DNA of 47,930 bases, from NCBI GenBank assembly GCA_018970725.1, contig JAGWVU010000038.1, positions 1 to 47,930 on the forward strand, given 5' to 3'. Origin of the DNA: Verrucomicrobiota bacterium. Lineage in GTDB: Bacteria > Verrucomicrobiota > Verrucomicrobiia > Verrucomicrobiales > DEV007. The notes under the pieces are model-generated. The model made no database searches, was not told the DNA's origin, and saw only the letters and a list, made by a program, of their open reading frames with translations. Below are positions 31,801 through 47,930 of the stretch, piece after piece (positions within the stretch are counted from its first letter, which is position 1; each line of letters opens with the position of its first letter). A program made the translations under genes and the position numbers.

Positions 31801-34800
31801 CCCCGCCGACCGTCACCCTCACCATGTTCGACGACGGCCTGCATGGCGACGGGGCCGCCGGGGACGGACTCTACGGCGCGCAAATTCCGGCCCAACCGGG
31901 AAGCACGGCAGTGACTTACCGCATCACCGCCACCGGGACCAACACCAACTCGACCACCAGCCCGAACTATGCTTATTCCGTGAATCCGGCCCTGACCGAC
32001 GCCACGATCCGCAACGCCGAATTCCTCGGGATCCCCGCCAACACCCGGATCACCCTCAATGTGGTCGCCACCACCGATCAGTATGCCTACGTCGAATACG
32101 GAACCTCACCGGGCCAATACACCCTCGCCACGCCACCCGCCCTGTTCACGATCGATCCCGCCCGGCCGGAGTTTTACAACCCCATCGAAATCACCCTGAC
32201 CGGGCTGCAACCGGACACCCGCTATTTCTACCGCTTCCGGCACCGGTCCACCGCCGGGACGGCTTACAACGCCCGGGGAGAACGTTCCTTCCGCACGGCG
32301 CGCCCGCGCGGTTCCTCCTTCGTCTTCACCGTCACCGCGGACCCTCACCTCGATGTCAACAGCGATCTGCCGCTCTTCACCCGCTCCATGACCAACATCG
32401 GCGCGGACGCCCCCGACCTGCACATCGATCTGGGCGATATTTTCATGACCGACAAACTGGCGGATGGAACGGCCGGCATCCCACCGGAATTTTTCGGCGG
32501 CGTCACCCCGAACCAACCGCGCCTCAATGATCGCGCCCTCTTTTTCCGCGCCCAGTTCGAGCGCTTCTGCCACAGCGTTCCCTTCTTCTACACCCAGGGC
32601 AATCACGAATCCGAATACGGCTATCTTTTCAACGCCGCGACCGACAAGGAGAACAACATCCCGGCCTGGAACCTGAAGGCGCGGAAAGCCTTCTATCCGA
32701 CCCCCGTCCCCGATTCCTTTTACACCGGCAACGGAACGCCGAAAGATTACCCCGGAGGCACGCTCGGCCTCCTCGAAAACTACTACGCTTACGAATGGGG
32801 CGACGCGCTCTTCATCGCCTTGGATCCCTATTGGAACACCAACACGAGCCCCAACCAGGTGGATGACGCCTGGCAATGGACCCTGGGCAAACCCCAATAC
32901 GATTGGCTCAAGGCCACCCTGCAAGGAAGCACCGCCAAATACAAGTTCGTCTTCCTCCACCACCTCGTCGGCGGAACCACGACCCTCGCGGACGGCATCA
33001 CCAAAAACGTGGCCGGGCGAGGCGGCATCGAAGTCGCCGATCGATACGAATGGGGCGGCAAGAACGCCGACGGCAGCCCTGGTTTCGCCACCAAACGTCC
33101 CGGCTGGGACATGCCGATCCACCAGCTGCTCGTGCAAAACAAAGTGAGCGTTGTCTTCCATGGCCACGATCATCTCTATGCCTTCCAGACGCTCGACGGT
33201 CTCGTTTATCTCGAGTGTCCCCAACCCGGCACGGCCAATTTCACCACCCTCGGCAGCGCCGGCGATGGCAAATATACCCAGGGAACCCTGCTCCCCAACT
33301 CCGGCCACATCCGGGTCAACGTCACTCCCGGCCAGGCCACCGTCTCCTATGTGAGGGCCTATCGCGCCACCGACGAAAACGCCACCCGTCGCAATGGCGA
33401 CATCGCCCACAGCTTCGAGATCGCGCCCGCCGTGCTCACCCCGGAGATCCAGGTCTACGATGGCACGCTCGCCGCCGGGACCGAGATCCAGGATGCCGCG
33501 GGCGTGGTCTCCTTCGGCACGGCCGTCACCGGAGCCGGCGTGACCCGGACGTTCACCGTGGCCAATACCGGCCCCGGCCCGCTTCTGATCAACGGTGTCA
33601 CCGCTTCCGGGGACTGGACGGTGGACACCACCGGTTTGAACACGACCCTCGCTCCCGCCGCCAGCACCACCTTCACCGCCACCTTCGCTCCCACCGCCGC
33701 CGGGAGCCGCGCCGGAACCCTGGTCATCGCCACCAACGACGCGGACGAGGCCGCCTTCGACATCGCCACCAGCGGCACCGGCAAATTGCCCCAGACCCTC
33801 AACTTCGCCGCCATCGATCCGCAAACTTGCGGCACCCCGCTGACCTTGAACGCCACGGCGGACAGCGGACTGCCGGTCGGTTATGCCATCACCCGCGGCG
33901 CCGCGCTCGCCGGCTTGTCGGACAACGTCGTGACCTTCACCGGCGCGGGCGAGGTGACCATCGCGGCCACCCAACCGGGCGACGCCACTTACGCCGCCGC
34001 GCCGCCGGTCAGCCGGACCTTCACGGTCGCGAAAGGGGATCAGGTCCTCACCTTTGGCGCCGGAGTTCCCGCCAATGTCCTGACCGGCGCCACCGTCGCG
34101 CTCTCCGCCACCTCGAACCGCAACCTCACGCCGGTCGGGTTCGCGGTCATCGGGGGTCCCGGCAGTCTCTCCGGGTCCAACCTGACCTTTACCGGACCGG
34201 GCGCGGTCGTGGTCCGCGCTTCCCAGGCGGGCAACAGCGCGTTCAACCCCGCCACGGCCGACTGGACGATCACCGCGTTCGCCAGCCAGTCGATCACCTT
34301 CGCGGTCATTCCCGACCAGGTGGCCGACACTCCATTGCCGGTCAGCGCCTCCAGCACGAGCGGGCTCCCGGTCACCCTCACGATCACCGGGGGCACCGGT
34401 TTCGCGACCCTCTCCGGGAACACCGTGACCTTCAGCGGTTCCGGGGCGGTAACCCTCGAGGCCACCCAACCGGGCGACACCACTTATGCCGCGGCCGCGC
34501 CGGTGAGCCGGAGCTTCACGGTCGGCAAGGCGGGCCAGACCCTCGCCTGGAGTCCCGCGGTGCCCGCCACCGTCGGCCAGGGAGCGGTGATCACGCTCTC
34601 CGCCACCTCCAATCGCGGGCTGACCCCGGTCACCTATTCCGTGCTGAGCGGTCCGGGTGAAATCTCCGGTTCCACCCTGACCTTCACCGGCACCGGTCCG
34701 GTGGTGACGCGCGCCTCCCAAGCCGGGAACAACGTCTACGGCGCCGCGACCGCCGACAAGACGATCACCGCCACGGCCGCGCCGGTGGCCGGGGATGGAA

Positions 34801-37800
34801 GCGCCGACGGCACCGTGAACGACTTGATCCGGGGCCGGCTCACGGCCACCGACCCCGACACCCCGGCGGGATCGCTCACCTTCACCCGGGTCGGTGCCCC
34901 ATCCCACGGCACGGTCGACATCATCGCGGGCACCGGGGTCTACGAATACCGTCCCGAGCCCGGGTATCTGGGGGTGGATCAATTCACCTTCAAAGCCGCC
35001 GACGGCCTGAATGAGAGCAACGTGGCCACCATCACCCTGAACATCGATCCCGTGGTCCCGGACTGGATCTGGATGGACGGCCCCAGCCTGACCAATGTCA
35101 AAGGCTCGCCAACGGCGCCGGGCGCCCGCGAAAAGGCGGCCCTGTGGACCGATCCCGCCGGCCGGCTCTATCTTTACGGCGGTTCCGGTTTCGGCGTCAC
35201 CACCGGCCCCGGACTGTTGGGCGACCTGTTCCGGCTCGACCCCGGCACCCGGACGTGGACCCGTCTCAAGGGATCTCCGGAAACGGGTGCGGCGGCCAGC
35301 GCCGGAGCGCCCGGCGTGGAAGCGGACACGAACCAGCCCGGGGCCCGGAGCGACGCCGCCACCTGGGTGGCCCCGGACGGTCTCCTCTGGCTCTTCGGAG
35401 GCACCGCTCCCTCGGGATCGATGGCCGATCTCTGGAACTACAACCCCGCCTCCGGCAACTGGACCTTCGTCGCCGGCAGCCTCGCCGCCAACGCGAACGG
35501 AGTTTACGGCACCCAGGGAATCGCCGCCGCCGGCAACCAACCCGGGGCCCGTTCGGCGGCCGCCTCCTGGATCGACCGGCGCGGCCATCTCCACCTGTTC
35601 GGCGGGCGCGGTTACGGCGCCACCGGAAGCATCCCCGGGGCCCTCAATGATCTCTGGTCGTTCAATCCATCGACCCGGCAGTGGACCCATCTCACCGGTT
35701 CCAACGCCACGAACGCCCCCGGCGTCTACGGCAGCCCGGGCCTCGATGATCCCTCCAACACCCCAGGAGGCCGCAGCCAAGCGGCCGCCTGGACCGACAA
35801 ACTCGGCAACTTCTACCTCTTCGGCGGAACCGGCGCCACCTCCACGAGCCTCCTCTCGGACCTCTGGTGTTACTCGCCTCCGGCCAACCGGTGGCGCTGG
35901 GTCCGGGGCGCCGCGACCCCGGGCGCCAGGGGCATCTACGGCCAATTGGGCCTGACCTCCTCAACCGCCCAACCGGGCGCGCGGACCGCCGCCGCGTCGT
36001 GGGTCGATGCCGCGGGCCGGCTCTGGCTCTTCGGCGGCAGCGGACTGGCGACCAGTGCCACGGCCGGCTTGCTGGGCGACGTCTGGGTCTACGACATCCC
36101 GGCTAACACCTGGACCTGGATGAAAGGGACCAACTTTGTCAACGGACCGCCCACCCACGGCACGCTCCGCGTCCCGGCCATCGGCAATACCCCCGGAGGC
36201 CGCCGGGACTCCGCCCGGTTCGTCGATCCCGCGGGTGACCTCTGGCTGTTCGGCGGCGGCACCGGCTCCAAGTTCCAGAGCGATCTCTGGAAACTCGACC
36301 TTCCCGCGCTGCCGGTCGTCGAACCCCTCGCCGCCTCCCCCCTCGCCAATCCCTCCCCCGGCCCGGCCGGCCTGGCCCTCAACGCCTCGGCCAACCCGCA
36401 AGGCACGCCGGCCACCGGTTGGTTCCGGATCGCGCGGTCGCCCGACTTCAGCGACAGCTTCACCACCTCCGCCCGGTCGTTGGGAGCGGGAATGACCGCC
36501 CTTCCCTTCAGCGAATCCCTCGCCGATCTCGAAGCCGGGACCACCTACCATGTGCAGGCGATGGCCGCCAACGCCGCCGGCACCGGGTTCGGCCAGGCCC
36601 GTTCCGTGGTCACCCCGGGCGCGCCCCAACCGCCCCAAGCCGGATTCACCGCCGCCGGGGCTGGCATCAATGAACAGGCGGGCGCAATCGCGCGCATCGC
36701 CGTGGAACTGGATGCTCCGGCCCCCGGCCCGGGAACCATCTCCTACACCCTCGGGGGGACTGCCTCCGCGGGAACCGATTACACCGCCCCGGCCCCGCCC
36801 CTGCGGTTCACGGCGGGTCAAACCTCAGCGGTGATCACCATCCCGATCCTCGATGACCACGCGGTCGAGTCCCCCGAGACCCTGACCCTGACCTTGGGCA
36901 ACCCCACCGGCGGGATCACCCTCGGCCCGGTCACCTTGTTCACCCTGACGATCACCGACACCGACAGCAAACCACAGATCGGCACCCAACCCCAATCGCG
37001 GTTTGTGATCGCGGGGGGCGCGGGCGTTCGCCTTTCGGTGGGGAACCTGACCGGGACACCACCCTTCACCTACCAGTGGCTCAAAAACGGTCTGCCGATC
37101 CGCGGAGCCACCTCGCCCGATCTTGCGGTGGCCTCCACCACCACCGGCACGGGCACTTACAGTGTGGTGGTCACGAACCCGGTCGGCAGCACCCTCAGCG
37201 AATCCGCGATGATCCACCGGATCACCGTGGCCAACGCGTCCCTCTCCCGGACACTGGGCAGCAGCCTCACCCTGACCGCCACCGCCACCAGCCCGGTGCC
37301 CATCCAGTATGCCTGGCACAAACAGGATGACGTGAACGATTCCGTCCTGCCCGGAGCCACCACCAACACCTTGCTCCTCACCAACCTCTCCCCGCAGGAT
37401 GCCGGATCCTATCGCTGCCGCGTCACCGCCGGCGGCCTCAGCGCGGACACGGGTATCACCCGGCTCGTGGTGGTGTCCATGAAGCCCGGGATCCTGCCGA
37501 TCGACACCTTGCCCACCGGTCAGGTCGGTGAGGCTTATTCCTATCAAGTGGAGCTCCAGGACGACCCTCTCAAAGACGCCAGCGCCTTCTCCGCCAAGGG
37601 ACTCCCGGCGGGTCTCTCCATCAGCCCGACCGGCCTCATCAGCGGCCGCCCGGTCGAATCCGTGGCCAACCGCGCCGTCACCCTCACCGCCAGCAACAGC
37701 ATCGGCACCAGCCTGACCGAGGCCTGCACCCTGACCATCCTGCCCTTGCCCGCCACCATTCCCGGCAACTACGTCGCCTCCGGAACCATCGACGGGATGA

Positions 37801-38939
37801 AGGTCCGGCTCGATATCACCGCGTCGGCGACCGGAGGGTTCTCGGCCGCTTCCACCGATGCCGCGGGCACTTCCTCCGCGGTCCGGGGCGGTCTCGTCTC
37901 GATGGACATCCAGAGCGGCCCGACCCCCGGCGCCCGCTGGATGGCCGCCTGCCTCCTCACCACCCGGGGCAAAGGCGCCGTCAATCTGGAACTCGCGTTC
38001 GACCCGGCCGATCCCAACCGGGTCGGCGGAACCTTCAGCGAACCCGGCACCGGCCGCTCGATGGGGACGATCACCGGTTTCCGCAACATCTGGAGCCGCA
38101 CCTCCCCGGCCGCCCACTACGCCGGATTCTACAGCGCCCTGCTGCCGACACCGCCCTCCTTCGCCGCCGACCAGCAGATCCCGCAGGGAACCGGTTCGCT
38201 CGGGTTCACCGTCACCGCCGCCGACGGCACGTTCAACCTGAACGCGGTTTCGGCCGAGGGGGTGACCCACACCTCCTCCAGCTTTCTCGGTCCGGACGGG
38301 GAAATCCTCCAGTTCGCGCACGCCGCGAGCGTGGGGAGCCTTCTGGCCGGCACCCCGAGGATCGTTTTGAGCTCGGGCGACAACTTTGCCACCAATTCCC
38401 TCGAGGGATCGTTGTCGTGGAGCAAGGCGCCCGCCTCCGCATCCTCTGCCACCCGGCTCTACCGCCCTGGATTCGAGGCGATGGATCTAACGCTCCAGGG
38501 AGGCAAATACACCGCGCCCGCCGCCGGCACGGTCCTCATGGGATTGCCGCGGACCGTCGCCGCCCCGAATGTCCGCCTCACCTTCAGCCAGGGAGGCTTG
38601 CCGCCGGATGCCGTCCCTCCGCTGGCCTTCCAGATCTCCAACCCGTCCGGCACCACCCAAAAAGCGACCCTGCCGACCGCCGGCGGCCCGCAAAACCCCG
38701 CCAGAATCAGCTTCACTCCGGTCTCTTCCACCGGGCTGTTCAGCGGCTCCTTCACCGTTTCCAACCCGGTCTCTTCGCTCGTCCGCGTCGTCCGTTACCA
38801 AGGCCGGATCACCCGCGACGCCACCGGCTACCACGCCGCGGGCTACTTCCTCCTGCCGCAGCTCCCACAACCCGGCGAAACCTTGGCCAAGACGTCGCCA
38901 ATCCTCAGCGGCGCGGTGCTTCTCGCCCCGATCCCCTGA
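22899..38939 (+). CDS. Giant secreted mosaic protein with sulfatase and metallophosphoesterase domains
   Basis: A 5346-residue protein with a GTG start at 22899 after AGAAGTGGAAGG and a signal peptide at residues 1-22. Domains in order: YHYH (about 211-338; DYHYH, ALDGYPIYG); DUF1566 (575-703 and 711-928); HYDIN-like (933-1047); duplicated module A (1048-1630); He_PIG (1634-1718); sulfatase (1720-2175; Asp 1729/1730, CSVTR at 1771, CGKWHLG); Ig, FN3 and bacterial Ig (2175-2457); module B (2460-3020); PAP-like FN3 plus calcineurin-like phosphoesterase (3034-3500; ADPHLD, GDIF, GNHE, GHDH); HYDIN (3515-3628); four MBG-like repeats (to 3964); cadherin-like; six Kelch blades (4052-4470); FN3, Calx-beta, two Ig, He_PIG; C-terminal domain ending LLPQLPQPG and SPILSG. 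There is no barrel, LPXTG or PEP-CTERM anchor, so it is probably released or surface-bound. Confidence 0.9.
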   Translation: MKISPLQLAILLMIASAPLVLAHPEHPADLSASAKEELRETITRRFLQSDTARKWFKVKPREETAAPKWPQRPVTVAALSGFHVSSLLAPTSPPAPAGNALLMQASFAPFKPKVRFNWDATTFFLESDNTPDGMPDKMVGITTWQQQVPIPAAYFSHSTSNENNAGSLGYQQPNHWRIPLVPTPSASPIVIYNPPAPPTNFLRGAVALASNGIAIFNPSNNGGNVSYEIGELDFYGGHCGLADDYHYHIIPTHLNSRFGGPLGDDKPVAWALDGYPIYGYLEPDGSPRQALDAEGGHDHGGWGYHYHAIGTTAVDATHPYGTPQSPYMMKAFHGTVVNFGNQVDGQPAVGNLRGDGTGGYNAKAVPGAYIVAFMNPAPLVTDGSGNLGLAAGVNLTACSTTAGSATVTCASTAGLSAGLAVVGQGVGNNATITSVTNGTQFVLSKPALLTTTGKNFTAVSLTGASPDMYLMRVNMAGADYDECWTINRKVNPRSLTMTWRAQALVNNQLSGPVLTTTQTYTPTAGTAPANRLTAYPMEAWSEVKLPDSGQLVSTTVTFGEDSDYTTPPEANPQSFTDNGDGTVTDHVTGLMWQKLDAGEMTWENAVNNASTQNTGGHTDWRLPNPHELFSLFNHENNGVALNQTYFPQNGAGAQYWWSRDIFGTSTTNVWCANSGGGLGPKPKSETISAGGTFRYHARYVRLARNNMTHNYTNNGDGTVTDTDTSLMWTQLPGSARTWEAALAYTETLATAGYTDWRLPNIKELQTLTDYSLATVSGGTATNNKPCIHRTLFAKTLPGCATTVGSPIVTTTDTEGLVTGMTVIDPYSIAGSYINHTTTPTITAINPGVSFTLSSNATGTGSGLILRALPVATAYWSSTSNRGTTTEAWLLELGVNNSVPASEGPPRGSQGIISYQAKTASFPVFAVRTTVVTTQIAVSQGTTSLLDGVGTVAYGNVNVGGSSSKTFTINNTGTTPLTISGLTIDGANSTNFSVSGSPDSTIAAGASTTFSVSFNALTAGAKTAALHIANSDPAVPSFDINLTGTGFVPPPVISEISVNPISPTSSDPVKVTARITPGTGGTISGATLTYDLGAQVSTDLLRETFAVAGSNNWNGTNPAAINAWTTAGAGNTRQATGASNRTAAITLTNCTLTAGSPNVTCGSTANLFPGMTVAGPNLPINTGTVTTTTRISSIPGPTQLVLTANATASGTATLTVNGASLTNCTTTAGSSSVTCDSTGGLVTGMSLTGTGLANNATVSSVTNSTTFVMSANPVTPASAFTITASSAALEFNGGTTASSATLTNSVNTSGTSGYVEFYLQNRDLFATNNNRWSFDVSPDGGSTWNTRLSEDWNSTTVNLANCVLNSTGANAGSTTVTCTTTTGLTAGRALYGPVIYSAVACGTSNGSNVVTCTNTTGLQVNLFVTGTGIPANARIGSITDNTSFTLVTGTSPGTALNATVTGSTTVAATYLSPTATVASVHANGTQFTLGSAAYFNTSAAPVAIAATTLNHDYATKADGTSQPYRYNLAGAELGANLKIRWQFAGYSATAPTRAPRCSVDDVRINRTTGAPPVTVTLYDDGTNGDTTAGDGIYTGTIPAQANGSTVNFTVSATGNGGTSTSGATSYLVAPSPVITTVSPLPAGNTISPYSQTLSATGGSGTGYTWNLFSGSLPSGLTLSGSGVLGGTATTGGTFNFTARVTDSASRSATKAFALTITAVTPPNVVIIVTDDQGWGDVGYHTPAGQVPIETPTMDSFASTGIRLERFYATTVCSVTRATLMTGRNAIRHGTNNERGLDLSEHLLPQTFKAAGYQTFMCGKWHLGGSDKNIYSFPLDGRPVRVIKEGLQYAPHNRGWDSHYGQYSGAIDYFTHNSAEPENLDLPDWWLNGVQQDGPAEHTDSQGNGGWSPDLLADKAISQIQNRDPSKPMLLHVAFNSIHGPVSAPPSLLAKYGNPSDPTRYIANANRRLIAAAVDGMDKAMGRVLAALDTAGISNNTIVVWFGDNGGDETKGSLNDPLRGTKGDSYEGGMREPAGIRWPGVLPAGVTSNQPVWVGDLFPTLCAATGVTPRNTKPLDGVNLWPALQAASNSAVVSRGTPLVTVSATPVAIYPFTDPVNGGTKDFKLIRNRVGTTVVNELYNLTDDPAESTDLSANTTYATIVNTLTNAITAITVENMKPYIGPPLITNTAAQGGTITLYAPFTSYPGAAPTVQWRKGGANIGGGVVTQITDSGAVAVKGTYAATLTLANLTPADAGTYDVIVTNNIGSTTSDPGTLTVTFGAPVLNPLPAFTKGTSQTVTWPAVAGANAYTIQRSATSDFSPVLSSQTVNTPSATFTGLTNGQACHYRATATDGTSVSGYSNIVSSTPDAQNPVVTLTAPANGITTSQTTVNVQGTASDSLSGVVSVMVNGVAATTADNYANWSATVPLAIGTNTLTATVTDNAQPGGNTGTASITITCTPLAPVIGAVATGPTAPTYIDPVTILAQVTPGASPVATVQLSYDLGTPVSTTIFRETFNNSASNNWNGSGSLNPWTTVGAGNVRQAVATSNRTVPLTLTSVATNGTTTVTCASTAGLWPGMLITGPNIAGSINGTATGNTTIASVTNATTFELSQPATGSGTGLTLTAAGVTLANCTTIAGTSVTCASTAGLLNGMSLTGTGLANNATVASVTGATTFTMNAAPTTPGPALTIVASGAAAEFNGGTANLTDSIFTTTNPINASGTAGYVEFWVQTRDLAATNNCQWALQVSPDNGTTWTTRLTEDWNSETVNLAGCLLNTTDAAAGSTTVTCASTTGLTAGQTMGGPAIYITGVLTTGQSTVTCLNTSGLLPGMFLQGTGIPNNTRIGTITPNTSFTLVTGPTATPVNATGAGGSTAIAATPFAAGATVASVTNATTFVISTAAYVNTTAAPIAVTATTVNHGFQLFRYDFTGAELGTTTKLRWLCTGYTPASPTRAPRISIDDLLVATTAPPPTVTLTMFDDGLHGDGAAGDGLYGAQIPAQPGSTAVTYRITATGTNTNSTTSPNYAYSVNPALTDATIRNAEFLGIPANTRITLNVVATTDQYAYVEYGTSPGQYTLATPPALFTIDPARPEFYNPIEITLTGLQPDTRYFYRFRHRSTAGTAYNARGERSFRTARPRGSSFVFTVTADPHLDVNSDLPLFTRSMTNIGADAPDLHIDLGDIFMTDKLADGTAGIPPEFFGGVTPNQPRLNDRALFFRAQFERFCHSVPFFYTQGNHESEYGYLFNAATDKENNIPAWNLKARKAFYPTPVPDSFYTGNGTPKDYPGGTLGLLENYYAYEWGDALFIALDPYWNTNTSPNQVDDAWQWTLGKPQYDWLKATLQGSTAKYKFVFLHHLVGGTTTLADGITKNVAGRGGIEVADRYEWGGKNADGSPGFATKRPGWDMPIHQLLVQNKVSVVFHGHDHLYAFQTLDGLVYLECPQPGTANFTTLGSAGDGKYTQGTLLPNSGHIRVNVTPGQATVSYVRAYRATDENATRRNGDIAHSFEIAPAVLTPEIQVYDGTLAAGTEIQDAAGVVSFGTAVTGAGVTRTFTVANTGPGPLLINGVTASGDWTVDTTGLNTTLAPAASTTFTATFAPTAAGSRAGTLVIATNDADEAAFDIATSGTGKLPQTLNFAAIDPQTCGTPLTLNATADSGLPVGYAITRGAALAGLSDNVVTFTGAGEVTIAATQPGDATYAAAPPVSRTFTVAKGDQVLTFGAGVPANVLTGATVALSATSNRNLTPVGFAVIGGPGSLSGSNLTFTGPGAVVVRASQAGNSAFNPATADWTITAFASQSITFAVIPDQVADTPLPVSASSTSGLPVTLTITGGTGFATLSGNTVTFSGSGAVTLEATQPGDTTYAAAAPVSRSFTVGKAGQTLAWSPAVPATVGQGAVITLSATSNRGLTPVTYSVLSGPGEISGSTLTFTGTGPVVTRASQAGNNVYGAATADKTITATAAPVAGDGSADGTVNDLIRGRLTATDPDTPAGSLTFTRVGAPSHGTVDIIAGTGVYEYRPEPGYLGVDQFTFKAADGLNESNVATITLNIDPVVPDWIWMDGPSLTNVKGSPTAPGAREKAALWTDPAGRLYLYGGSGFGVTTGPGLLGDLFRLDPGTRTWTRLKGSPETGAAASAGAPGVEADTNQPGARSDAATWVAPDGLLWLFGGTAPSGSMADLWNYNPASGNWTFVAGSLAANANGVYGTQGIAAAGNQPGARSAAASWIDRRGHLHLFGGRGYGATGSIPGALNDLWSFNPSTRQWTHLTGSNATNAPGVYGSPGLDDPSNTPGGRSQAAAWTDKLGNFYLFGGTGATSTSLLSDLWCYSPPANRWRWVRGAATPGARGIYGQLGLTSSTAQPGARTAAASWVDAAGRLWLFGGSGLATSATAGLLGDVWVYDIPANTWTWMKGTNFVNGPPTHGTLRVPAIGNTPGGRRDSARFVDPAGDLWLFGGGTGSKFQSDLWKLDLPALPVVEPLAASPLANPSPGPAGLALNASANPQGTPATGWFRIARSPDFSDSFTTSARSLGAGMTALPFSESLADLEAGTTYHVQAMAANAAGTGFGQARSVVTPGAPQPPQAGFTAAGAGINEQAGAIARIAVELDAPAPGPGTISYTLGGTASAGTDYTAPAPPLRFTAGQTSAVITIPILDDHAVESPETLTLTLGNPTGGITLGPVTLFTLTITDTDSKPQIGTQPQSRFVIAGGAGVRLSVGNLTGTPPFTYQWLKNGLPIRGATSPDLAVASTTTGTGTYSVVVTNPVGSTLSESAMIHRITVANASLSRTLGSSLTLTATATSPVPIQYAWHKQDDVNDSVLPGATTNTLLLTNLSPQDAGSYRCRVTAGGLSADTGITRLVVVSMKPGILPIDTLPTGQVGEAYSYQVELQDDPLKDASAFSAKGLPAGLSISPTGLISGRPVESVANRAVTLTASNSIGTSLTEACTLTILPLPATIPGNYVASGTIDGMKVRLDITASATGGFSAASTDAAGTSSAVRGGLVSMDIQSGPTPGARWMAACLLTTRGKGAVNLELAFDPADPNRVGGTFSEPGTGRSMGTITGFRNIWSRTSPAAHYAGFYSALLPTPPSFAADQQIPQGTGSLGFTVTAADGTFNLNAVSAEGVTHTSSSFLGPDGEILQFAHAASVGSLLAGTPRIVLSSGDNFATNSLEGSLSWSKAPASASSATRLYRPGFEAMDLTLQGGKYTAPAAGTVLMGLPRTVAAPNVRLTFSQGGLPPDAVPPLAFQISNPSGTTQKATLPTAGGPQNPARISFTPVSSTGLFSGSFTVSNPVSSLVRVVRYQGRITRDATGYHAAGYFLLPQLPQPGETLAKTSPILSGAVLLAPIP
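24081..24278 (+). repeat. In-frame inserted unit U1 in the YHYH region
   Basis: A 198-bp (66-codon) segment encodes the unit pattern C-x10-C, AGLSAGL, GQGVGNNATITSVTNGTQF. It is flanked by VNLTACS on the left and VSLTGAS on the right, a diverged direct repeat. Removing it joins AAGVN to LTGASPDMYLMRVN in frame. Confidence 0.6.
25282..25504 (+). repeat. In-frame inserted unit U2 inside the second DUF1566 domain
   Basis: A 216-bp (72-codon) unit lies between perfect 7-bp direct repeats CCCTGCC at 25282-25288 and 25498-25504. Excision of one repeat plus unit reconnects RTLFAKT with LPVATAYWSSTS, the expected continuous end of a DUF1566 domain. Confidence 0.65.
26328..26754 (+). repeat. Tandem units U3 and U4 inside module A
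   Basis: Two consecutive units (about 26328-26549 and 26550-26754) each carry C-x10-C, a GL/NLxxGM turn and a TTF or TQL strand. They interrupt the host segment between SNRTAA and LEFNGG. U4 contains GTGLANNATVSSVTNSTTFVM, nearly identical in pattern to U8. Confidence 0.6.
26961..27426 (+). repeat. Nested units U5 (outer) and U6 (inner) in module A
   Basis: A 456-bp (152-codon) segment is bounded by ACCGTCAACC (26961-26970) and ACCCTCAATC (27417-27426), 8 of 10 identical. Inside, a first unit is interrupted near 27082-27300 by a second complete one with CGTSNGSNVVTC and GTGIPANARIGSITDNTSF. The first unit then resumes at ATVASVHANGTQF. Confidence 0.6.
30556..30978 (+). repeat. Tandem units U7 and U8 in module B
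   Basis: Two consecutive units (30556-30777 and 30778-30978). U7 has only one of the two Cys; U8 has C-x9-C and the GTGLANNATVASVTGATTF segment. They lie at the same host position as U3/U4 in module A. Confidence 0.6.
31193..31650 (+). repeat. Nested units U9 (outer) and U10 (inner) with perfect flanking repeats
   Basis: The outer 447-bp insertion is bounded by a perfect 11-bp repeat GACGGTGAATC (31193-31203 and 31640-31650). The inner 207-bp unit is bounded by a perfect 8-bp repeat CCGCCATC (31306-31313 and 31513-31520). Both distances are multiples of three. Removing the inner unit restores GGPAIAA and ATVASVTNATTF of a canonical unit; removing the outer restores NSETVNHGFQLFRY. Confidence 0.7.
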
Positions 38940-40902: not shown

Positions 40903-42284
40903 ACCGCCGTCATTTTGGCCAAACCGTCGCGGGTTCCGCCCTCGCCTTTCAATTCCAAGTGGTCCCCAGCCGCGTCTTCGGCGCCAACGGGCGCATCGCC
41001 CTCGGCGGGATCGGAACCTCCGGCAAGGGAGCCAGTGATCTCGCGGGCTGCGCCAAAACCGGGTTCGAGATCGTCGGCCTGACCGACGTCGCCGATGCCC
41101 GCAAAAACCCGGAGGGCACCGGAAAAACCGGCGCCCTGCAAGCAACCCGCGACGCGCATCCCGACGCCCGGTTCTACACGGACTACCGCGAGATGCTCCA
41201 CGATCTGGGGGACAAGGTGGACGCGGTGACCGTGAGCACCCCGGACCATCACCATTTTCACGCGGCCCACGCGGCGATGCGGGCCGGGAAACATGTCTAT
41301 TGCCAGAAGCCGCTGACCCATGGCCTCTGGGAAGCCCGCACCCTGACCCGCTTGGCCCGCGAGACCGGCGTCAAAACCCAAATGGGAAACCAGGGACAAG
41401 CCAACGACGGTTCCCGGCGTTGCGCCGAAATCATCCGCGCCGGAGCCATCGGGACCATCCGCGAAGTCCATGTCTGGACGGACCGGCCCACCTGGCCACA
41501 GGGATTCGACCGCCCCCCCGACCCACAACCGGTTCCCGCATGGCTCGACTGGGAACAATGGATCGGCCCGGCCCCGTTTGTCGATTATCATCCCAAGATC
41601 ACGCCGTTCAACTGGCGCGGCTGGTGGGATTACGGGACCGGCGCGCTCGGCGATATCGCCTGCCACTACATGACCATGATCCACGGCGCCTTGAACCCGG
41701 GCCCGCCGCTCTCGGTCCAAGCGGTCGCGGAAGGCGGCACCGAGCTCTCGCCGCCCATCGTCTCCACCGTCACCTACGAATTCGCCGGCGGCCTCAAATA
41801 CGTCTGGTACGATGGCCAAAAAGGAGCCAGATTCGTCCGCGAGTCGTGGAGCCTCCAAAAGGGGGAATTCAACCGGCCCGGCAAAGAGATCCTGAACGGA
41901 CTCGATCATACCCAATACGATACCGCGGTCATCGGCTCGAACGGCATCCTCTATTTCAGCTACCCCCGCCCGGCCGACTGGGTGGTCATCCCCTCCGGAC
42001 GTCTCGATGGTTTCGCTTGGCCCGCTCCTTCCCTGCCCCGGGCCCGCGACCAGAATCCTTACGCGGAATGGCAAGACGCCATCCAAGGCAAGATCGAACA
42101 GGCGGAATCCCACTTCGGCCAAGCCGGCCCCTTCACCGAAATGGTCCTCCTCGGCGTCCTCGCCCAACGCTTCCCCGGCCGGAAATTGGAATGGGAGGAC
42201 GCGACCCTGACCGTGAAAGACCGGCCGGAACTTCAGGCCCACATCCGCCGGAACTACCGCAAAGGTTGGGAAGTTCCCGCCTGA
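40899..42284 (+). CDS. Gfo/Idh/MocA-family oxidoreductase with Tat signal
   Basis: A 461-residue NAD(P)-dependent dehydrogenase of the Gfo/Idh/MocA family, typical of sugar metabolism in Verrucomicrobia and Planctomycetes. The N-terminus MNRRHFGQTVAGSALAF is a twin-arginine signal, so it acts outside the cytoplasm with pre-bound cofactor. IALGGIGTSGKG is the Rossmann dinucleotide loop, VSTPDHHHFHAAHAAMRAGK and YCQKPLTHGLWEAR follow (the usual EKP is QKP here, as in many Tat-exported members), and GWWDYGTGALGDIACHYM is the family signature. It is translationally coupled to the hydrolase gene by ATGA, suggesting joint glycan breakdown. Confidence 0.93.
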   Translation: MNRRHFGQTVAGSALAFQFQVVPSRVFGANGRIALGGIGTSGKGASDLAGCAKTGFEIVGLTDVADARKNPEGTGKTGALQATRDAHPDARFYTDYREMLHDLGDKVDAVTVSTPDHHHFHAAHAAMRAGKHVYCQKPLTHGLWEARTLTRLARETGVKTQMGNQGQANDGSRRCAEIIRAGAIGTIREVHVWTDRPTWPQGFDRPPDPQPVPAWLDWEQWIGPAPFVDYHPKITPFNWRGWWDYGTGALGDIACHYMTMIHGALNPGPPLSVQAVAEGGTELSPPIVSTVTYEFAGGLKYVWYDGQKGARFVRESWSLQKGEFNRPGKEILNGLDHTQYDTAVIGSNGILYFSYPRPADWVVIPSGRLDGFAWPAPSLPRARDQNPYAEWQDAIQGKIEQAESHFGQAGPFTEMVLLGVLAQRFPGRKLEWEDATLTVKDRPELQAHIRRNYRKGWEVPA

Positions 42285-42366
42285 ACCCCACCAAATTTCC
42301 GGGAGCTTGCATTTTTCCGAAAACCGAGTCGGCGCTTTCTGACGCAGCTTCGCCATCGTTGGGCTC

Positions 42367-42700
42367 GTGGCAGGCGTTTATGACCAAGTGCCGGCGATCC
42401 AGCGCCGGGAACTCCGGTCGCAATGGATCTACCTTCTCGGCTTTCCCCGGCCCATTGAGGCGAGCATCGACCGCGAAGGCGTCGGAGCCGTCCGCCACGC
42501 CACTTTCGGACGGGAGGTGTCCTTGTTTGAAGTCGTCACCGACTGGCAGACCCCGCTTTCGTGCCTCACACCGCCTTTGACGAGCACATCATCGTCGGCG
42601 GCCGGTTTTATGATGTGCTGGACGGCACCTACGGGTGATGCGCCAGATTCAAGGCTCCATCCTCGAAGTGATCCGCAAGCGCTGTGAATCCGCCGGTTGA
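42367..42700 (+). pseudogene. Remnant of an SRPBCC (START/polyketide-cyclase-like) gene
   Basis: Three coding pieces of one protein lie in different frames. The first (from about 42367) has QWIYLLGFPRPIEASIDREG and HATFGREVSLFEVVTDWQ. The second, in another frame, has FDEHIIVGGRFYDVLDGTY then a stop. The third (42638-42700) has MRQIQGSILEVIRKRCE, the C-terminal helix of the same family. The N-terminus and central part are missing, so the gene is dead. The family is assigned from pattern memory of relatives. Confidence 0.6.
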
Positions 42701-42771
42701 TTCCAAGCCTGCCCACCCTTACCGAACGGCCAACGTGCCCTCGTGAGGCACCGGTCGGCGTGGGAGGGTGG

Positions 42772-43335
42772 GTGTCCAGTCCGGTGAATCCGGGCGGTTT
42801 GGCTCGGGTGACTCTGCCGCCGGAATTCCCTTCACGAGCCTGGCTCAAAGTGGAACAGGCGCTCGCCTGGGCGGGGTGGGATGAGGAAGCATTTTGGCTG
42901 GGAAAAAACGCTCTCGAACTCGGGAGTTCCCCGGGCGGAATCTCTCTGGCTCTGGTGCGGCGAGGGCTCCAGGTAGAAGCCGTCGATCCCGCTCCAATGC
43001 ATCCCTCGGTGTTGGCCGAGATTGGCCCCGGCGGCGCCAGGGTGCGCCATCGGCAACAACCGGTGGGGAGCCTGGCTCGGGAAACCTGGACGAGGCCGGT
43101 GGATTTGCTTGTTTCCGACATGAACCTGGCCCCGCCCGCCGTCATTCGCTATATAGAAAGGCTCCAACCCTCCGTCCGGGCGCGTCGATGGATCATCACG
43201 CTGAAGCTGAACGACTCCGCTATGGTGTCGCGCCTTCCAGATTTCCGGGAGCGCCTCGGCCGGATCGCCCCGCAACCGTTACGCGTCGTCCAATTGACCG
43301 CCAACCGCCAAGAGGTCATGGTGATCGCCGGATGA
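42772..43335 (+). CDS. FtsJ/RlmM-like SAM-dependent methyltransferase, possibly N-terminally truncated
   Basis: The catalytic domain of a ribose 2'-O-methyltransferase resembling RlmM/FtsJ. It has PSRAWLKVEQALAWAGW, the SAM loop ALELGSSPGGISLALVRRG, VDPAPM, the motif-IV-like VDLLVSDMNLAPP, and TLKLN followed by a C-terminal TANRQEVMVIAG. A GTG at 42772 with GGGAGG four nt upstream gives 188 residues; a TTG at 42697 is also open. RlmM-type proteins have about 350 residues with an N-terminal RNA-binding part, which is missing here. It abuts the SRPBCC remnant, so a deletion may have removed its start. Whether it is active is unclear. Confidence 0.65.
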   Translation: MSSPVNPGGLARVTLPPEFPSRAWLKVEQALAWAGWDEEAFWLGKNALELGSSPGGISLALVRRGLQVEAVDPAPMHPSVLAEIGPGGARVRHRQQPVGSLARETWTRPVDLLVSDMNLAPPAVIRYIERLQPSVRARRWIITLKLNDSAMVSRLPDFRERLGRIAPQPLRVVQLTANRQEVMVIAG

Positions 43336-43472
43336 TCATAATGCCAAACGGCCAAGCATAAGGGGGCATCCCTGGCCCGATCGTTCCGTCGTGGCGCGGA
43401 AGCTAAAAGCACTCGACCACTCCACCCACCCTGCGCCCTCGGTGGAGGCCTCGTCGGTCTCTCGGTTCGCGG

Positions 43473-45815
43473 TCAACCGCGAGAAGAGGGCACGCCCATC
43501 CTGCGCAATTCGGCCAACCATCGTGCGCGGTTGGTGGCCGCCAGCACACCTCGTTTGTCCAGACTCTCCAAGGCGGCCACCGCCCTCTGCAAGGTTTGGC
43601 GGTCCTGGGAAGCGGCGGCCCGTAAGCCTTGAACCCAAAAACCCTCCGCTTGAAGTTCCACATCCTCAGGATTCGCACCGGCCTGCCCGGCTAACTTGCT
43701 CTCGGCAGCCGTCAACAGCAAAGCCGCCTCTTGAGTCTTGCCTTCGCTGAGCAGCAATCTGGCTTGATCGGCCTCCAGACGCGACTCGGCGAGATCGAGT
43801 TTTGCATTATCCGAGGCTTTGGCAGACTGGCGGATGCGGTCGAGAATCTCTCGAGACTCAGCAAGGAATGGACCCGCCGAACCATTGAGACGCGACTGCA
43901 TTCGCCACTCTGCGGATAGGCGCAACGTGGCGATCCAATCGATGGCAACTTTGATGTCCGGCTTCGTACCCGTGGCGAGATCGCGTTGCACCGTGAGGGC
44001 TTTCTGCAAGTGATTGCGCGCCTCGTCCATTCGTCCCGCATTGGCGAGCACCCGAGCCATGGCCTGCCGGCTCCGCGCGAGGTCCGCCAAGATCTTATGA
44101 TTGGCGGGATCATAGAGCGCCAGATCGATCCGAATCTTCAAGGCCTGCTCATGGGCGGCGATCGCCTCCTCGGTGTTCCCGAGCGCCTCCTCCGCCAGGC
44201 CCAAGCTGTCGTAACTGCGACTGACTTCATTGATCCAGATGGCGTTCAGGCCATGTTGTTCGAGAAGATCTTTCCGGACGTCCAGTCCCTCCTGATAGGC
44301 CTCGCGCGCCTCAGCGTAGCGCCCCTCCATCTTGAGGACGTCTCCGATGCGACCGCAGGCCACGCCAAAGTCACGCTCGAACCCGGGATCGTTCCGGCCC
44401 AATTCTGCAGCCAGTCTCCGGCGCAGGGTGCGGGAGGTTTCAAAGTGTTCTCGGGCCGCCCGGAGATCCGCGGCACCATCCTCAAGGATGTCCCCCATGC
44501 GCTCATGAGCCTGCGCGAGATCGCGGTCCAGGAGAGAACGGGGAAGGTGCGTGTTTTCAGCGATGAGTTGCTCGAGAAGCGTGACAGAGGTTTGGGTGGT
44601 TCGCAGGGCGTCTTGAACACTGCGGTCTTCCATGACATCTGCGATCCGCTCAAAGGAGACGGCGTAGAGCCTGCGCGCTTCCGGCGCCACCGCGAGCCTT
44701 TGAGGGCCCAGGCTTTCCAAGGTTTGTTGGGCATTGTGGAAGCTCTGCAGCGCCAAATCCTCTTTGTTGCGCGCCTCAAGGATCTCGCCGTGGGCCATCC
44801 ACATGAAGGCTCGTTGCAGGGTGACTTCGGCATCGTCTTTCCCTTCCGGCATCTCCATGAAGTAGGTCTTCGCGGCATCTGAAACCTCCGAAAGGAGGTC
44901 GAGTTTGCCCAGTGGGCGGAGTTTATCGCCCAAATCACCGAGCATTTCATTGATCAGGCGATTGGCCTGGCTGTTGGCATGTTCCGCCGCCAATCGCTCC
45001 CGGTTGGCTCGGTATTGAGCCCAAAAAGCCCATGTGCCGGCCAGAACGGCGGCCAGCGCCAAAGAGCCCACCACAGCCAACGCCCTTCGCAAGCGTTGGA
45101 TTCGAAACTGATTGGTCTCCCGTACCAGGGTGCCGAGCGGAACTCCCAGAATCGCCGCGATGACTTTCAATCGCGCATCTTCCAGCCGGGCCGCGAAGGC
45201 GGCTGTCCGCTTCCGGATTTGTCTGGCCTCCAGGTCTGGACTGGAGCGCCGGAGCCCGGCCCGGAAGTCTGCCGCGGAGGTAAAGCCTTGCTCGTCCTTC
45301 CCCTCAACCCGGGCATCCGCGCAAAGAGGCTCGGCCGCTGCAGTCCAGTCGATCGCACCGCCGGGACCAGGCACGCCGCGCAGCAGCGAAGGCGGAAGGC
45401 ATTCCCTTTCCGGATCCGCTCCGGAACGAACGGACGCAAACGGATCGCCATCCACGATGAGCGCCACAATCCGGGCGGCTCCACCCTCTTGTTCTTTGAA
45501 CGAGCGGATCTCAGCATCAACGTAGATCGACTTGGCAGCCCTCGGCGAGCAGACGACGACGAGAAATCGCGAGCGGTTCAAGGCGCCCACGATCGCTTCC
45601 TTTAGATCGTGACTCGCGGCAAACTCTTTTTCGTCCCGGAAGATTGGGAACAGTTCTTTTGGAATCGGCTCGCCGTCCCCTCTTTGCATGCCGACAAGTC
45701 TCTCAGGCACGGGATAGCTTTCGAGCCTTTCATGCAACCAGTTGGCCCAGCGCCGGCCCTCTTCGCGGTTGTCTGCATGGCTATAACTGATGAAAGCAAG
45801 GTATTGACGTTCCAT
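43473..45815 (-). CDS. TIR domain - transmembrane - TPR protein
   Basis: From ATG 45815 the product has 780 residues (a GTG at 45872 would add 19). The N-terminal 150 residues are a TIR domain: YLAFISYSHADNREEGRRWA, FRDEKEFAAS, and RFLVVVCSPRAAKS with the conserved Glu in YVDAEIRSFKEQ, the position of the NADase Glu in enzymatic TIRs. A single membrane helix (about 243-265, AVVGSLALAAVLAGTWAFW) follows, then about 450 residues of TPR-like helices such as GRYAEAREAYQEGLDVRKDL. Such proteins occur in signalling and antiphage contexts; nothing here proves either. It stands alone among decayed DNA. Confidence 0.88.
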   Translation of the reverse strand: MERQYLAFISYSHADNREEGRRWANWLHERLESYPVPERLVGMQRGDGEPIPKELFPIFRDEKEFAASHDLKEAIVGALNRSRFLVVVCSPRAAKSIYVDAEIRSFKEQEGGAARIVALIVDGDPFASVRSGADPERECLPPSLLRGVPGPGGAIDWTAAAEPLCADARVEGKDEQGFTSAADFRAGLRRSSPDLEARQIRKRTAAFAARLEDARLKVIAAILGVPLGTLVRETNQFRIQRLRRALAVVGSLALAAVLAGTWAFWAQYRANRERLAAEHANSQANRLINEMLGDLGDKLRPLGKLDLLSEVSDAAKTYFMEMPEGKDDAEVTLQRAFMWMAHGEILEARNKEDLALQSFHNAQQTLESLGPQRLAVAPEARRLYAVSFERIADVMEDRSVQDALRTTQTSVTLLEQLIAENTHLPRSLLDRDLAQAHERMGDILEDGAADLRAAREHFETSRTLRRRLAAELGRNDPGFERDFGVACGRIGDVLKMEGRYAEAREAYQEGLDVRKDLLEQHGLNAIWINEVSRSYDSLGLAEEALGNTEEAIAAHEQALKIRIDLALYDPANHKILADLARSRQAMARVLANAGRMDEARNHLQKALTVQRDLATGTKPDIKVAIDWIATLRLSAEWRMQSRLNGSAGPFLAESREILDRIRQSAKASDNAKLDLAESRLEADQARLLLSEGKTQEAALLLTAAESKLAGQAGANPEDVELQAEGFWVQGLRAAASQDRQTLQRAVAALESLDKRGVLAATNRARWLAELRRMGVPSSRG

Positions 45816-46214
45816 GTTGCAACGGAAGGCGTTGGATTCCTGTTTCGGCACTAAGCTAGCGCCGCGATTCACGGTAGGCGGAAGCTACCGGAAATCAAAT
45901 TTCCCACTGACCAAATGGCCGCGACAAGGAAACTCGGGCCGTTTGCTGTGGTCACTCCTGGGCTTCGCCTCCTTGCGTCTCCTTGGGCCTCTCCTCACTA
46001 CGCAAGTTGTCACAGCTTACTCCGCCGGAGCATCCTGGCGATATAGATTGCGGACGGCATTCATCGGTGAACTCTAAAAACCCTTGGATAAGTAAGCCGC
46101 GTCACGTTTCGAAGCCGGTTGCGCAACAAACGGTGGAGCGAGTCAGCCGGCGTGGCCGAAGCGAAAGGCCTGCCCGACGCACTGGTATCTCCGGCGTCGC
46201 GAGTGGTCGCTCTC
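45816..46214. other. Intergenic region without a recognisable gene
   Basis: Composition is lower in GC than its surroundings and no open frame here resembles a protein. The promoter of the TIR gene is expected near 45830-45950 but none stands out. Confidence 0.4.
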
Positions 46215-46382: not shown

Positions 46383-46431
46383 TCATCGATGTCTTTCCCC
46401 GGCCGGGGCCGGGAGGGGAGCTCTTATGAAA
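46362..46431. repeat. 12-bp direct repeat at the end of the IS110 remnant
   Basis: GCTCTTATGAAA occurs at 46362-46373 and again at 46420-46431, where it covers the transposase stop codon. Between them lies a GC-rich palindrome (CCCCGGCCGGGG-type). It may mark the end of the element and its target. Confidence 0.45.
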
Positions 46432-46858
46432 CTTCCCCGTGGACCGGGGTCAAGGCGAATCCGAGTTGATCGGCTTGGCGGCGAAGAGAGCGCTCTTTGC
46501 GGGCGCGGATCAACTCGGGATTGCCGGGGCGTTGCGCATCGTAGGAGCGGCGGTGTTTGACCATCGCCCAAAGGATGCGCACCAGTTTGTGGGCGGCGGC
46601 GGTGACCGCTGCCTTGGTTCCGAGCTTGGATTTGATTCTGCGGAACCAGTCTCCCAAGGGGGATTTTGAGCGGTGGAGCGACTGCGCGGCCATGCGCAAG
46701 GCAGTGGCCAGCCGGTTGTTAACCTTGCGGGTGTGCGCGGCGTGGGTGCGGCCCCCGGTGATCCGGTTGTCCGGGCACAGGCCCATCTACGAGGCGAAGT
46801 GCTCGGCTTGGGGGAACTTCTCCACATCGGTGCCCACTTCACTGACAAGCTGAAAGGG
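46424..46858 (-). pseudogene. IS110-family transposase remnant with an in-frame stop
   Basis: The C-terminal part (Transposase_20 region) of an IS110 transposase reads VSEVGTDVEKFPQAEHFAS, then a TAG at 46787-46789, then GLCPDNRITGGRTHAAHTRK, NNRLATALRMAAQSLHRSKS and KLVRILWAMVKHRRSYD, ending GEVS at 46424. The TAG replaces the Trp usually found in the FASWLGLCP segment. The catalytic DEDD N-terminal domain is absent: homology breaks off near 46858. Confidence 0.85.
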
Positions 46859-47226
46859 TTTTCCTTTTGGAGCCCGCCCGCCCACGAGTAACCGGTCGAC
46901 GTGGGATGGTTGGGTTTCATTTCCGCCCCGCCCGGCCACGAGTCGGCGGTCGGGGGGCGGATGCCTCACGCTGATCCTCGACCTGCTCCGCGCCTAGTGA
47001 ATCGCTGTGGTTACGGATCGCACTGTGGACGGGTGCTTCCCCACCGTGACAAAAAAATGGCCGCTCCCGTACTTTTTTCTTGTCCTGCTTTCGGATGTCC
47101 CGTTAGAACCGCTGGCAGACCCCATCTAGCCAATGGCCATGCAACGCCCACTAGCTTGGTTTTTGAATCGACTTTCGCATCGTCCTGACCACGTTCGCTT
47201 GAACCGTAGGGGGGGCTAACCGGTGG
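46859..47226. other. Region without intact genes; imperfect 24-bp direct repeats
   Basis: Two related GC-rich segments at about 46875-46898 and 46929-46952 share CCACGAGT in a similar context. The remainder shows no protein-like frame. It lies between the broken end of the IS110 remnant and a short secreted-protein fragment. Confidence 0.4.
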
Positions 47227-47325
47227 GTGGCTTGGACCTTCTTGGGAGCCCTCTTCGCTCTGGTCGCACCCAGCCTCCGGGCGGATGAAACCGGGTTCGA
47301 GTATGACCGCACCGAAAGCTATTGA
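47227..47325 (+). pseudogene. N-terminal fragment of a secreted protein
   Basis: A 32-codon frame with a possible GTG start encodes a signal-peptide-like stretch (TFLGALFALVAPSLRADE) followed by GFEYDRTESY and a stop. It looks like the first exported residues of a protein whose remainder was removed next to the REP-like repeats. Confidence 0.4.
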
Positions 47326-47329
47326 GGTT

Positions 47330-47440
47330 TTTGGTGTCAGGCTCGATGCGCGCTGAACATCAGGAACTCACAATGATCCCAGGTCATTTTGCCTGACAAC
47401 AAACGGGGAAAGCCTTGCCTGACACCAAACGGGGAAAGCC
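47330..47440. repeat. REP-like repeat cluster next to the RAYT gene
   Basis: TTTGGTGTCAGGC (47330-47342) is the exact inverse of GCCTGACACCAAA (47417-47429). A 26-bp unit, TTGCCTGACAACAAACGGGG plus AAAGCC, occurs twice in tandem (47389-47414 and 47415-47440) with one mismatch. Short inverted repeats of this type commonly flank RAYT transposase genes, and one ends at 47627. Confidence 0.6.
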
Positions 47441-47626: not shown

Positions 47627-47930
47627 CTACCCTCGCAAGTCTCGCATCGCCATCAACCCGCCCCATCGCACCCCCTGAATCTTGCGGGCGCCGTCCAAGC
47701 GTTTGGGCGGGAATGCATCGCGTTTGGCCTGGAACATGGCTTCCAGGAAAACTTTGCCTCCGATGGCCATGCCTTCTGTGAAGTGCCGCACCCGAAGTTT
47801 CACGAGCACCGGCCAGGCGATGGCGCCTTGCTGACGATTGATGACCATTTCGGTCGTTTCCGGCTTGAAGCCCCGACGAATGACCTGGCCCTCGTCATTC
47901 CGGACTTCTTGGCCCTCTTCATAGAGCCAG
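47627..47930 (-). CDS. REP-associated tyrosine transposase (RAYT, Y1 family), 5' part outside window
   Basis: The C-terminal 100 residues of a Y1-type transposase continue past the window edge. It reads LYEEGQEVRNDEGQVIRRGF, then VLVKLRVRHFTEGMAIGG and VFLEAMFQAKRDAFPPKRLDGARK, ending GGLMAMRDLRG. The RVR(Y/H)F.(D/E)G ... G...F(V/L)E..F ... F.PKR..GAR pattern is the conserved tail of RAYT proteins in Verrucomicrobia and Planctomycetes. The catalytic HUH and Tyr residues lie outside the window. The repeats at 47330-47440 are its likely REP partners. Confidence 0.7.
   Translation of the reverse strand, partial: WLYEEGQEVRNDEGQVIRRGFKPETTEMVINRQQGAIAWPVLVKLRVRHFTEGMAIGGKVFLEAMFQAKRDAFPPKRLDGARKIQGVRWGGLMAMRDLRG

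Follow-up and report, generated by a model that had tools for sequence, protein, structure and literature searches.

A probably mobile bacterial gene under purifying selection for a putative single-pass TIR-TPR receptor

The minus strand of the window (the whole stretch of DNA analysed here, 47,930 nucleotides) holds a gene at 43473..45815 that codes for a protein of 780 residues with a TIR domain, a long linker, a predicted transmembrane (TM) helix and a region of helical repeats (TPR). The gene is real and intact, under selection and probably mobile, and it probably codes for a single-pass TIR-TPR receptor. We give roughly even credence to the mechanism that we propose for it, in which an extracytoplasmic TPR sensor would switch a cytosolic TIR NADase on a chassis common to receptor kinases.

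Results

Domain composition

The reading frame can start at ATG 45815 or, intact in the same minus-strand frame, at GTG 45872, giving 799 residues. Because the DNA similarity to the ortholog in a congener starts at 45824, the ATG is favoured. From the N-terminus, all on the minus strand, the protein consists of the TIR domain (residues 1-135, 45411..45815), assigned by Pfam, by profile matches to plant TIR structures and by a dN/dS of 0.10; a long linker (residues 136-238, 45102..45410) that is typical of the window's own branch of 14 sequences according to alignment and tree; the predicted TM helix (about residues 245-266, 45018..45083), placed by hydropathy and flank charges; the juxtamembrane motif RLINEMLGDLGDKLRPLGKLDLLSEVSDAAKTYFMEMPEG (44841..44960), found by alignment, genome search and classification to occur in Ser/Thr kinases as well; and the TPR region (about residues 326-772, 43500..44840).

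Pfam models score over their cut-offs for the TIR domain (TIR_2, E 1.2e-10; ThsB_TIR, E 6.2e-6) and for the repeats, where several TPR models match (TPR_12, E 1.9e-11) and the best stretches lie within residues 486-564 (799-residue numbering minus 19). These models and the hydropathy bear out the earlier note on this DNA, which had described a TIR-TM-TPR protein. PADLOC gave a weak TPR match alone (E 0.011). Two AlphaFold models, whose alignment held only the window and ortholog (L038) rows, have mean pLDDT values of 44.7 and 51.8. The TIR part is unreliable in both (pLDDT about 24-48), and helical hairpins are seen, with pLDDT of about 50-89 only from about residue 450 onward.

The TIR tree has 36 rows, L137, L145 and L131_8749 having been removed from 39. 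Eight residues are invariant in the 36 aligned proteins, window included: F8, S10, Y11, F59, D61, C89, S96 and E102. The E102 codon (45510..45512, minus strand), for the putative catalytic Glu, lies in the motif SIYVDAEI. The plant TIRs L6 and Roq1 and PDB 9m0n (named tetratricopeptide repeat protein) are matched by the family profile, with a Glu at the position of E102 in these alignments; in the plant TIRs this Glu is the catalytic residue. The Glu of NAD-cleaving TIRs is in this respect kept, as had been noticed from the sequence before. Further, the TIR has the lowest dN/dS among the parts compared with the ortholog. The domain is likely, judged from its residues, to be an NAD-cutting enzyme.

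In the tree, the window protein and its ortholog group together (100/100) inside the 14-row branch (100/98). The C-termini in this branch differ. TPRs are found in the window protein, in G001, in L123 and, with no clear TM, in L050, and WD40 repeats are assigned in L043 by Pfam and, solely through a local profile, in L044 and L045. L049 ends in WD40 and FGE, and the rest have no assignment or a weak one.

A juxtamembrane motif also found in Ser/Thr kinases

The segment after the TM helix, RLINEMLGDLGDKLRPLGKLDLLSEVSDAAKTYF, can be aligned with the corresponding segment in other proteins. The alignment holds 11 proteins: five kinases with Pkinase domains (L021, L022, L023, L026 and L028), five TIR proteins (the window protein, its ortholog, L103, L123 and L133) and L112, which has a TM N-terminus only. 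The residues L, D, L, L and G are invariant among them. Like the window protein, the kinases L021, L022, L026 and L028 carry TPRs, while L023 has no TPR family at E 1e-5 (Pfam); the cytosolic output of these five is a Pkinase domain instead of a TIR.

A profile of the 11 proteins replaced two regular expressions, the first of which had found only 2 proteins and the looser one 9. It gives 44 matches in 31 of 141 genomes of the order. Thirty matches were studied as loci: 20 are kinases, 5 are TIR proteins (window and ortholog included), 1 is a STAND NTPase, 2 have a TM N-terminus only and 2 are unclassifiable (a contig edge and a broken frame). The kinases were classified by script in 16 cases and by reading in four (L159, L165, L171, L172), and 5 of the 20 belonged to the profile's own alignment. 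In the window's own genome the profile search at E 1e-6 finds the motif in no kinase, the sole match being the TIR gene itself.

By this classification, the TM-juxtamembrane part is a module that in the order is mostly carried by Ser/Thr kinases. The sequence statistics point to a chassis common to the window receptor and receptor kinases. Since the motif sits with both kinase and TIR outputs and the C-termini of the branch differ, receptor pieces appear to have been exchanged in evolution; no direction is claimed for the swap between kinase and TIR.

Predicted topology

The strongest hydrophobic stretch, at about residues 245-266, has a Kyte-Doolittle value of 2.0, and a weaker one (1.4) lies inside the linker at about residues 213-232. 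Around the window TM there are five Lys/Arg before the helix and three after it. The same count was made for 39 proteins, window included, and 3 under the hydropathy threshold were dropped; in 34 of the remaining 36 there are more Lys/Arg before the TM than after, the two sides are equal in 2 and the reverse is found in none. These rows are non-independent, several coming from one genus, and the pattern is nonetheless one-sided. Kinases with the same juxtamembrane module show the excess before the TM in 18 of 20 cases (equal 1, reverse 1).

The kinase domains of these proteins require cytosolic ATP. The flank charges of the TIR proteins and those of the kinases both argue for the TIR inside and the repeats outside. 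In addition, the C-terminal part is slightly poorer in cysteine (0.9% against 1.4%), which lends a little support to repeats on the outside. The TIR is thus probably cytosolic, with the TPR sensor on the other side of the membrane. The earlier note had a TIR tethered to the membrane with a TPR sensor; one strong TM is indeed present, but the repeats are probably outside. As the TM-juxtamembrane module is also mostly kinase-borne, the tethered TIR is better read as a transmembrane receptor.

Mobility and selection

The sole ortholog found is in the congener G001 (contig CAMCXS010000079.1) and is 86% identical. The DNA similarity between the window and the G001 locus covers 43480-45824 only, and the rest of this 22-kb locus has no match to the window at E 1e-5. 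Further, the neighbours of the window gene map to other G001 contigs than the one with the ortholog. In a second congener, G002, whose genome is 81% complete, there is no match to the gene.

The silent divergence (pS) between the window gene and its ortholog is 0.36-0.37, against 0.47-0.71 for 18 other gene pairs of the same two genomes. These pairs come from 1-21.5 kb and 39.6-43.3 kb of the window and have more than 100 aligned codons and a dN/dS below 0.25. The truncated rlmM gene beside the window gene was counted as one pair, and a non-orthologous match at 22899-38939 was excluded. Antisense shadow ORFs (dN/dS 0.7 or more) were excluded as well; their pS is low (0.07-0.35), as expected of antisense shadows. 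The low pS of the window gene and its non-syntenic ortholog suggest that the two copies probably separated later than the genomes did, by transfer.

At E 1e-20 the TIR type is patchy, being found in 15 of 74 genomes of the family and 13 of 288 drawn from the phylum, with the own genome in both sets. The gene is thus probably mobile or accessory, and the mobile placement that had been proposed from the sequence alone gains from the low silent divergence, the non-syntenic ortholog and the patchiness in the family. No relative is found at E 1e-5 among 50,697 phage records. A phage-borne gene was rejected, since these records gave no match and the 93 pattern hits in viral contigs yielded no confirmed relative.

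Compared with the ortholog, dN/dS is 0.15 over 780 codons, and it is 0.26 in the last 160 residues. Both copies are under purifying selection, as this codon comparison indicates.

Flanking DNA

On the 3' side of the TIR gene lies a remnant of rlmM (23S rRNA methyltransferase) at 42781..43335 of the plus strand, the C-terminal half, which covers positions 157-347 of 359 in the NCBIfam RlmM model (E 1.1e-17, below the model's full-length cut-off). A 5' half is not found within 41901-43500, and longer rlmM ORFs of 337-442 residues occur on contig C70 of the own genome and in both congeners. On the 5' side, 46424..46786 of the minus strand holds the C-terminal quarter of an IS110-family transposase (NF033542 positions 257-342 of 343, E 3.1e-16, below the full-length cut-off), which matches annotated IS110 transposases in tblastn. 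Two short multi-copy repeats lie further out. The one at 46835..46925 has many short matches in the own genome and the congeners, and the one at 47325..47414 has several in the own genome at 84-98%.

The decayed region that the earlier note had reported is thus seen on both immediate sides of the gene, in the truncated rlmM, the IS110 tail and the multi-copy repeats, but not at about 39.1-42.3 kb. That part matches one stretch of G002, and about 39.8-42.3 kb matches one stretch of G001, so the decay is local to the surroundings of the gene. A RAYT-type transposase near both gene copies was also considered, at 47627-47929 of the window and 12164-12868 of L038, both of which look like one; it is not claimed, as neither stretch matches a Pfam or NCBIfam family.

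A Pfam scan of seven neighbouring ORFs reveals no partner gene beside the TIR gene, just as had been stated before (PADLOC, among the window proteins, covered the TIR protein itself only).

Gene neighbourhoods of relatives

The TPR-S and pNTSase systems reportedly go back to Burroughs and Aravind 2020. In the sister branch, G008 (L051) has two TIR genes, one of them for a TIR-TM-TPR protein, that adjoin genes for a TPR-S/cyclase protein and a patatin, which PADLOC models call a phospholipase effector. The locus of G022 (L055) resembles it, with TPR-S confirmed by search and patatin by eye. In G266 (L124) the TIR gene adjoins a TPR-S/cyclase gene. A Novosphingobium plasmid (L103) carries a TIR-TM gene that has the juxtamembrane motif and stands directly before pNTSase1 and TPR-S genes; the protein of this TIR-TM gene has no TPR model at E 1e-5 (Pfam). 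The neighbour proteins searched with Pfam and PADLOC were 10 chosen by eye, and they show that such neighbours exist, not how frequent they are.

Twelve genomes, of 9 genera, have both an over-cut-off TPR-S and a TIR of this type, and in 6 of the 12 (4 of the 9 genera) the two lie within 5 kb of each other; the count includes genomes picked for having the TIR. The six are G008, G022 and G029, which are of one genus, and G042, G146 and G266; in G042 a stop codon interrupts the TIR match that lies within 5 kb, and the other TIR match is 5.7 kb away. In the draw of 288 genomes from the phylum, the linkage is found in 2 of 6 genomes having both.

In the window's branch, none of 11 genomes (G000, G001, G003, G015, G020, G035, G038, G056, G261, G298 and G301) has an over-cut-off TPR-S near the TIR gene. 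The own genome has one TPR-S match, on contig C98, with the TIR gene on C11, and the context of this TPR-S gene looks the same in G001; a direct TPR-S partner of the window gene was rejected on these grounds. The twelfth source in the branch, an R. leguminosarum plasmid (L104), has its gene within a cluster of annotated TIR genes, where one protein matches PADLOC PDC-S60 but no Pfam family and where a DUF4071 gene is found about 5 kb away. Judged by eye, L041, L042 and L045 are single genes among ordinary genes. Upstream of the TIR gene in G301 there is a guanylate-cyclase/TPR gene (L123:12498-14972), which has no PADLOC match.

The neighbourhoods of homologues only partly follow the idea of a defence gene, as several sister-branch relatives have immune-type neighbours but L041, L042 and L045 do not. 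Linkage to defence genes is seen for some members of the sister branch and not for the window's own branch. These neighbourhoods support an immune association for the family at large.

Discussion

Alternative explanations

It should be asked whether the TIR and the TPRs could both be cytosolic, with the hydrophobic stretch as an anchor or hairpin and the TPRs sensing a phage or host protein within the cell. For the TIR defence protein SpbK, PMC12847820 describes an interaction with a phage protein, and the weaker hydrophobic stretch in the linker could in principle form a hairpin. Against these points, the charge asymmetry in both the TIR proteins and the kinases fits a single crossing with the N-terminus inside, and we regard the cytosolic arrangement as unlikely. 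We are equally doubtful of a non-catalytic TIR that acts as an assembly platform and passes a signal to other proteins, in which case the receptor would be regulatory and not lethal. It would suit the ordinary contexts of L041, L042 and L045, and a passage in PMC7075850 states that TIR domains most commonly form signalling complexes. However, E102 is kept together with S96, C89 and D61 in every aligned protein, and no other part compared has a dN/dS as low as that of the TIR.

The linkage to TPR-S in half of the genomes with both genes, and the pNTSase1 and TPR-S genes directly downstream in Novosphingobium, suggest another possibility: a nucleotide-signalling system (TPR-S/cyclase/pNTSase) could drive the TIR protein as an effector in trans, the partner being lost or elsewhere. 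This may hold in the sister branch. For the window gene it is improbable, as the own TPR-S match and the TIR gene are on different contigs, the context of that match looks alike in G001, and the linkage is absent from the 11 genomes of the branch. Finally, the truncated rlmM and IS110 that flank the gene could make it a decaying and non-functional one, an idea to which we assign very little probability, since the selection test contradicts it: the frame is intact in two genomes and dN/dS is well below one.

Several results were counted against a TIR-TPR receptor as proposed here: the lack of a partner and of TPR-S linkage in the branch, the ordinary contexts, the absence of a phage-borne relative among the records searched, the weak PADLOC match, the absence of a motif-bearing kinase from the own genome at E 1e-6, the mildness of the cysteine difference and the low pLDDT of the TIR part in both models.

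Comparison with known systems

The section on Group 6 in PMC7075850 describes an N-terminal TIR followed by multiple C-terminal TPRs in proteins of over 700 residues, over 95% of them actinobacterial, with boxes 1-3 not conserved; a TM helix goes unmentioned there. The window protein shares the domain order and the length, but it has FISYS as box 1, a long linker and a TM helix. With Thoeris ThsB and other TIR NADase defence proteins it shares the ThsB_TIR match and the catalytic-type Glu, and it differs from ThsB by its TM and TPRs. No ThsA-type effector domain is found among the neighbouring window ORFs scanned with Pfam, so the adjacency seen in Thoeris is missing. Thoeris type III was rejected: only the Novosphingobium relative matches, weakly (E 3.9e-4, below the curated cut-off). 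A STALD search found nothing in two genomes (own and congener), but it was also empty in its 14 controls and is uninformative.

Genes of related TIR-TM proteins adjoin the predicted TPR-S/pNTSase/cyclase immune systems (Pfam PF20308, PF20301); these systems are not beside the window gene, nor is TPR-S beside the TIR gene in the 11 branch genomes. To PDB 9m0n/9umd ('Tetratricopeptide repeat protein') the family profile matches in a TIR stretch near the N-terminus (E 9.3e-6), which covers only part of the TIR, and the TPRs of these entries are known by name only. NPCBM domains fused to TIR or S/T/Y kinase effectors (PMC8195603) are an earlier bacterial case in which one kind of partner domain carries either a TIR or a kinase output; the passage on them names no TM-TPR module or juxtamembrane motif, unlike what is seen in the window receptor.

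In the literature searched, bacterial TIR defence proteins are described, in the passages concerned, as sensing phage products or nucleotide signals. No bacterial TIR-TM-TPR proteins with a kinase-shared juxtamembrane motif were found there; Burroughs and Aravind 2020 may say more. Animal Toll-like receptors, as outlined in PMC7075850, have a repeat sensor outside, one TM helix and a TIR inside. The layout is alike, with the reverse domain order and with LRR in place of TPR or WD40; this is an analogy, and no descent is claimed.

Proposed mechanism and implications

In the mechanism that we propose, the TIR domain would be in the cytosol, most likely as an NAD+-consuming enzyme that is inactive at rest. 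The TPR superhelix would lie at the outer face of the inner membrane, where it would sense an envelope-side cue or a partner protein. The juxtamembrane motif would pass the signal through the helix, probably by an altered geometry of a dimer or cluster, whereupon the TIR domains would assemble and cleave NAD+, causing depletion or an ADP-ribose signal. The likeliest use would be conflict, with growth arrest or death once an attack is sensed at the envelope. A defence role of the window gene is plausible.

More tentatively, and with clearly less confidence than in the mechanism itself, there may be a bacterial class resembling Toll-like receptors, with a TPR or WD40 sensor outside, one TM and an output swapped between a TIR NADase and a Ser/Thr kinase, which would detect attack at the level of the envelope. 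New here would be the TM-TPR chassis with a juxtamembrane motif shared with kinases. Precedents for its parts exist in the fusions of PMC8195603 and in the relevant passage of PMC10907252, where sensors of conflict systems are predicted in both cytoplasm and periplasm. If the proposal is true, an attack would be noticed at the envelope instead of once DNA has entered. With such a family of TIR receptors, it could be tested directly whether TIR immunity senses at the level of the envelope, and a modular system would be at hand for chimeric receptors in laboratory bacteria.

Short repeats and a long open reading frame in the window

To the right of the TIR gene there are two short repeats, at 46835-46925 and 47325-47414. 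The former is found in many copies in the window's own genome as well as in both congeners, the latter in many copies in the own genome, and both look REP-like. An open reading frame adjoins them (47627-47929), and by eye only it resembles a REP-associated transposase; scans against Pfam and NCBIfam gave no HMM support for such a transposase. The stretch 47627-47930 matches a contig (C27) of the congener G001 at 79%.

Further, one uninterrupted reading frame on the forward strand (22899-38939) spans 5346 aa. By eye, parts of it look like YHYH, sulfatase, metallophosphatase, kelch and Ig-like domains.

Other genes in the own genome, congeners and plasmids

TIR_2 has seven matches in the own genome, five of them above the cut-off. 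Among the seven are a TIR-FGE protein (L058:8555-9715), a TIR-nSTAND1 protein (L062:6437-9157) and a divergent TIR-TPR protein (L060:7286-9589).

In G001, the contig of the locus with the ortholog of the window TIR gene (L038) is labelled Akkermansia muciniphila, while its genome (~6.5 Mb) is assigned to the same genus as the window; this species name may be a mislabelling.

A protein combining TPR-S with a hydrolase-like N-terminus is found at L142:2566-3969 and L143:7315-8703, and its gene context looks alike in two congeners. For L142, the hydrolase-like part has weak NCBIfam matches, below the cut-off.

On the Rhizobium leguminosarum plasmid CP050566.1, a cluster (L104:2047-16668) holds three annotated TIR genes, a match to the PADLOC model PDC-S60 and a DUF4071 gene; two of the TIR genes are each directly followed by a gene annotated as hypothetical. 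A WD40-like gene is also seen there by eye. The Thauera plasmid NZ_CP023440.1 encodes a long TPR protein (L105:6255-9020), whose N-terminal part by eye resembles DUF4062, and toxin-antitoxin and restriction genes lie near its gene.
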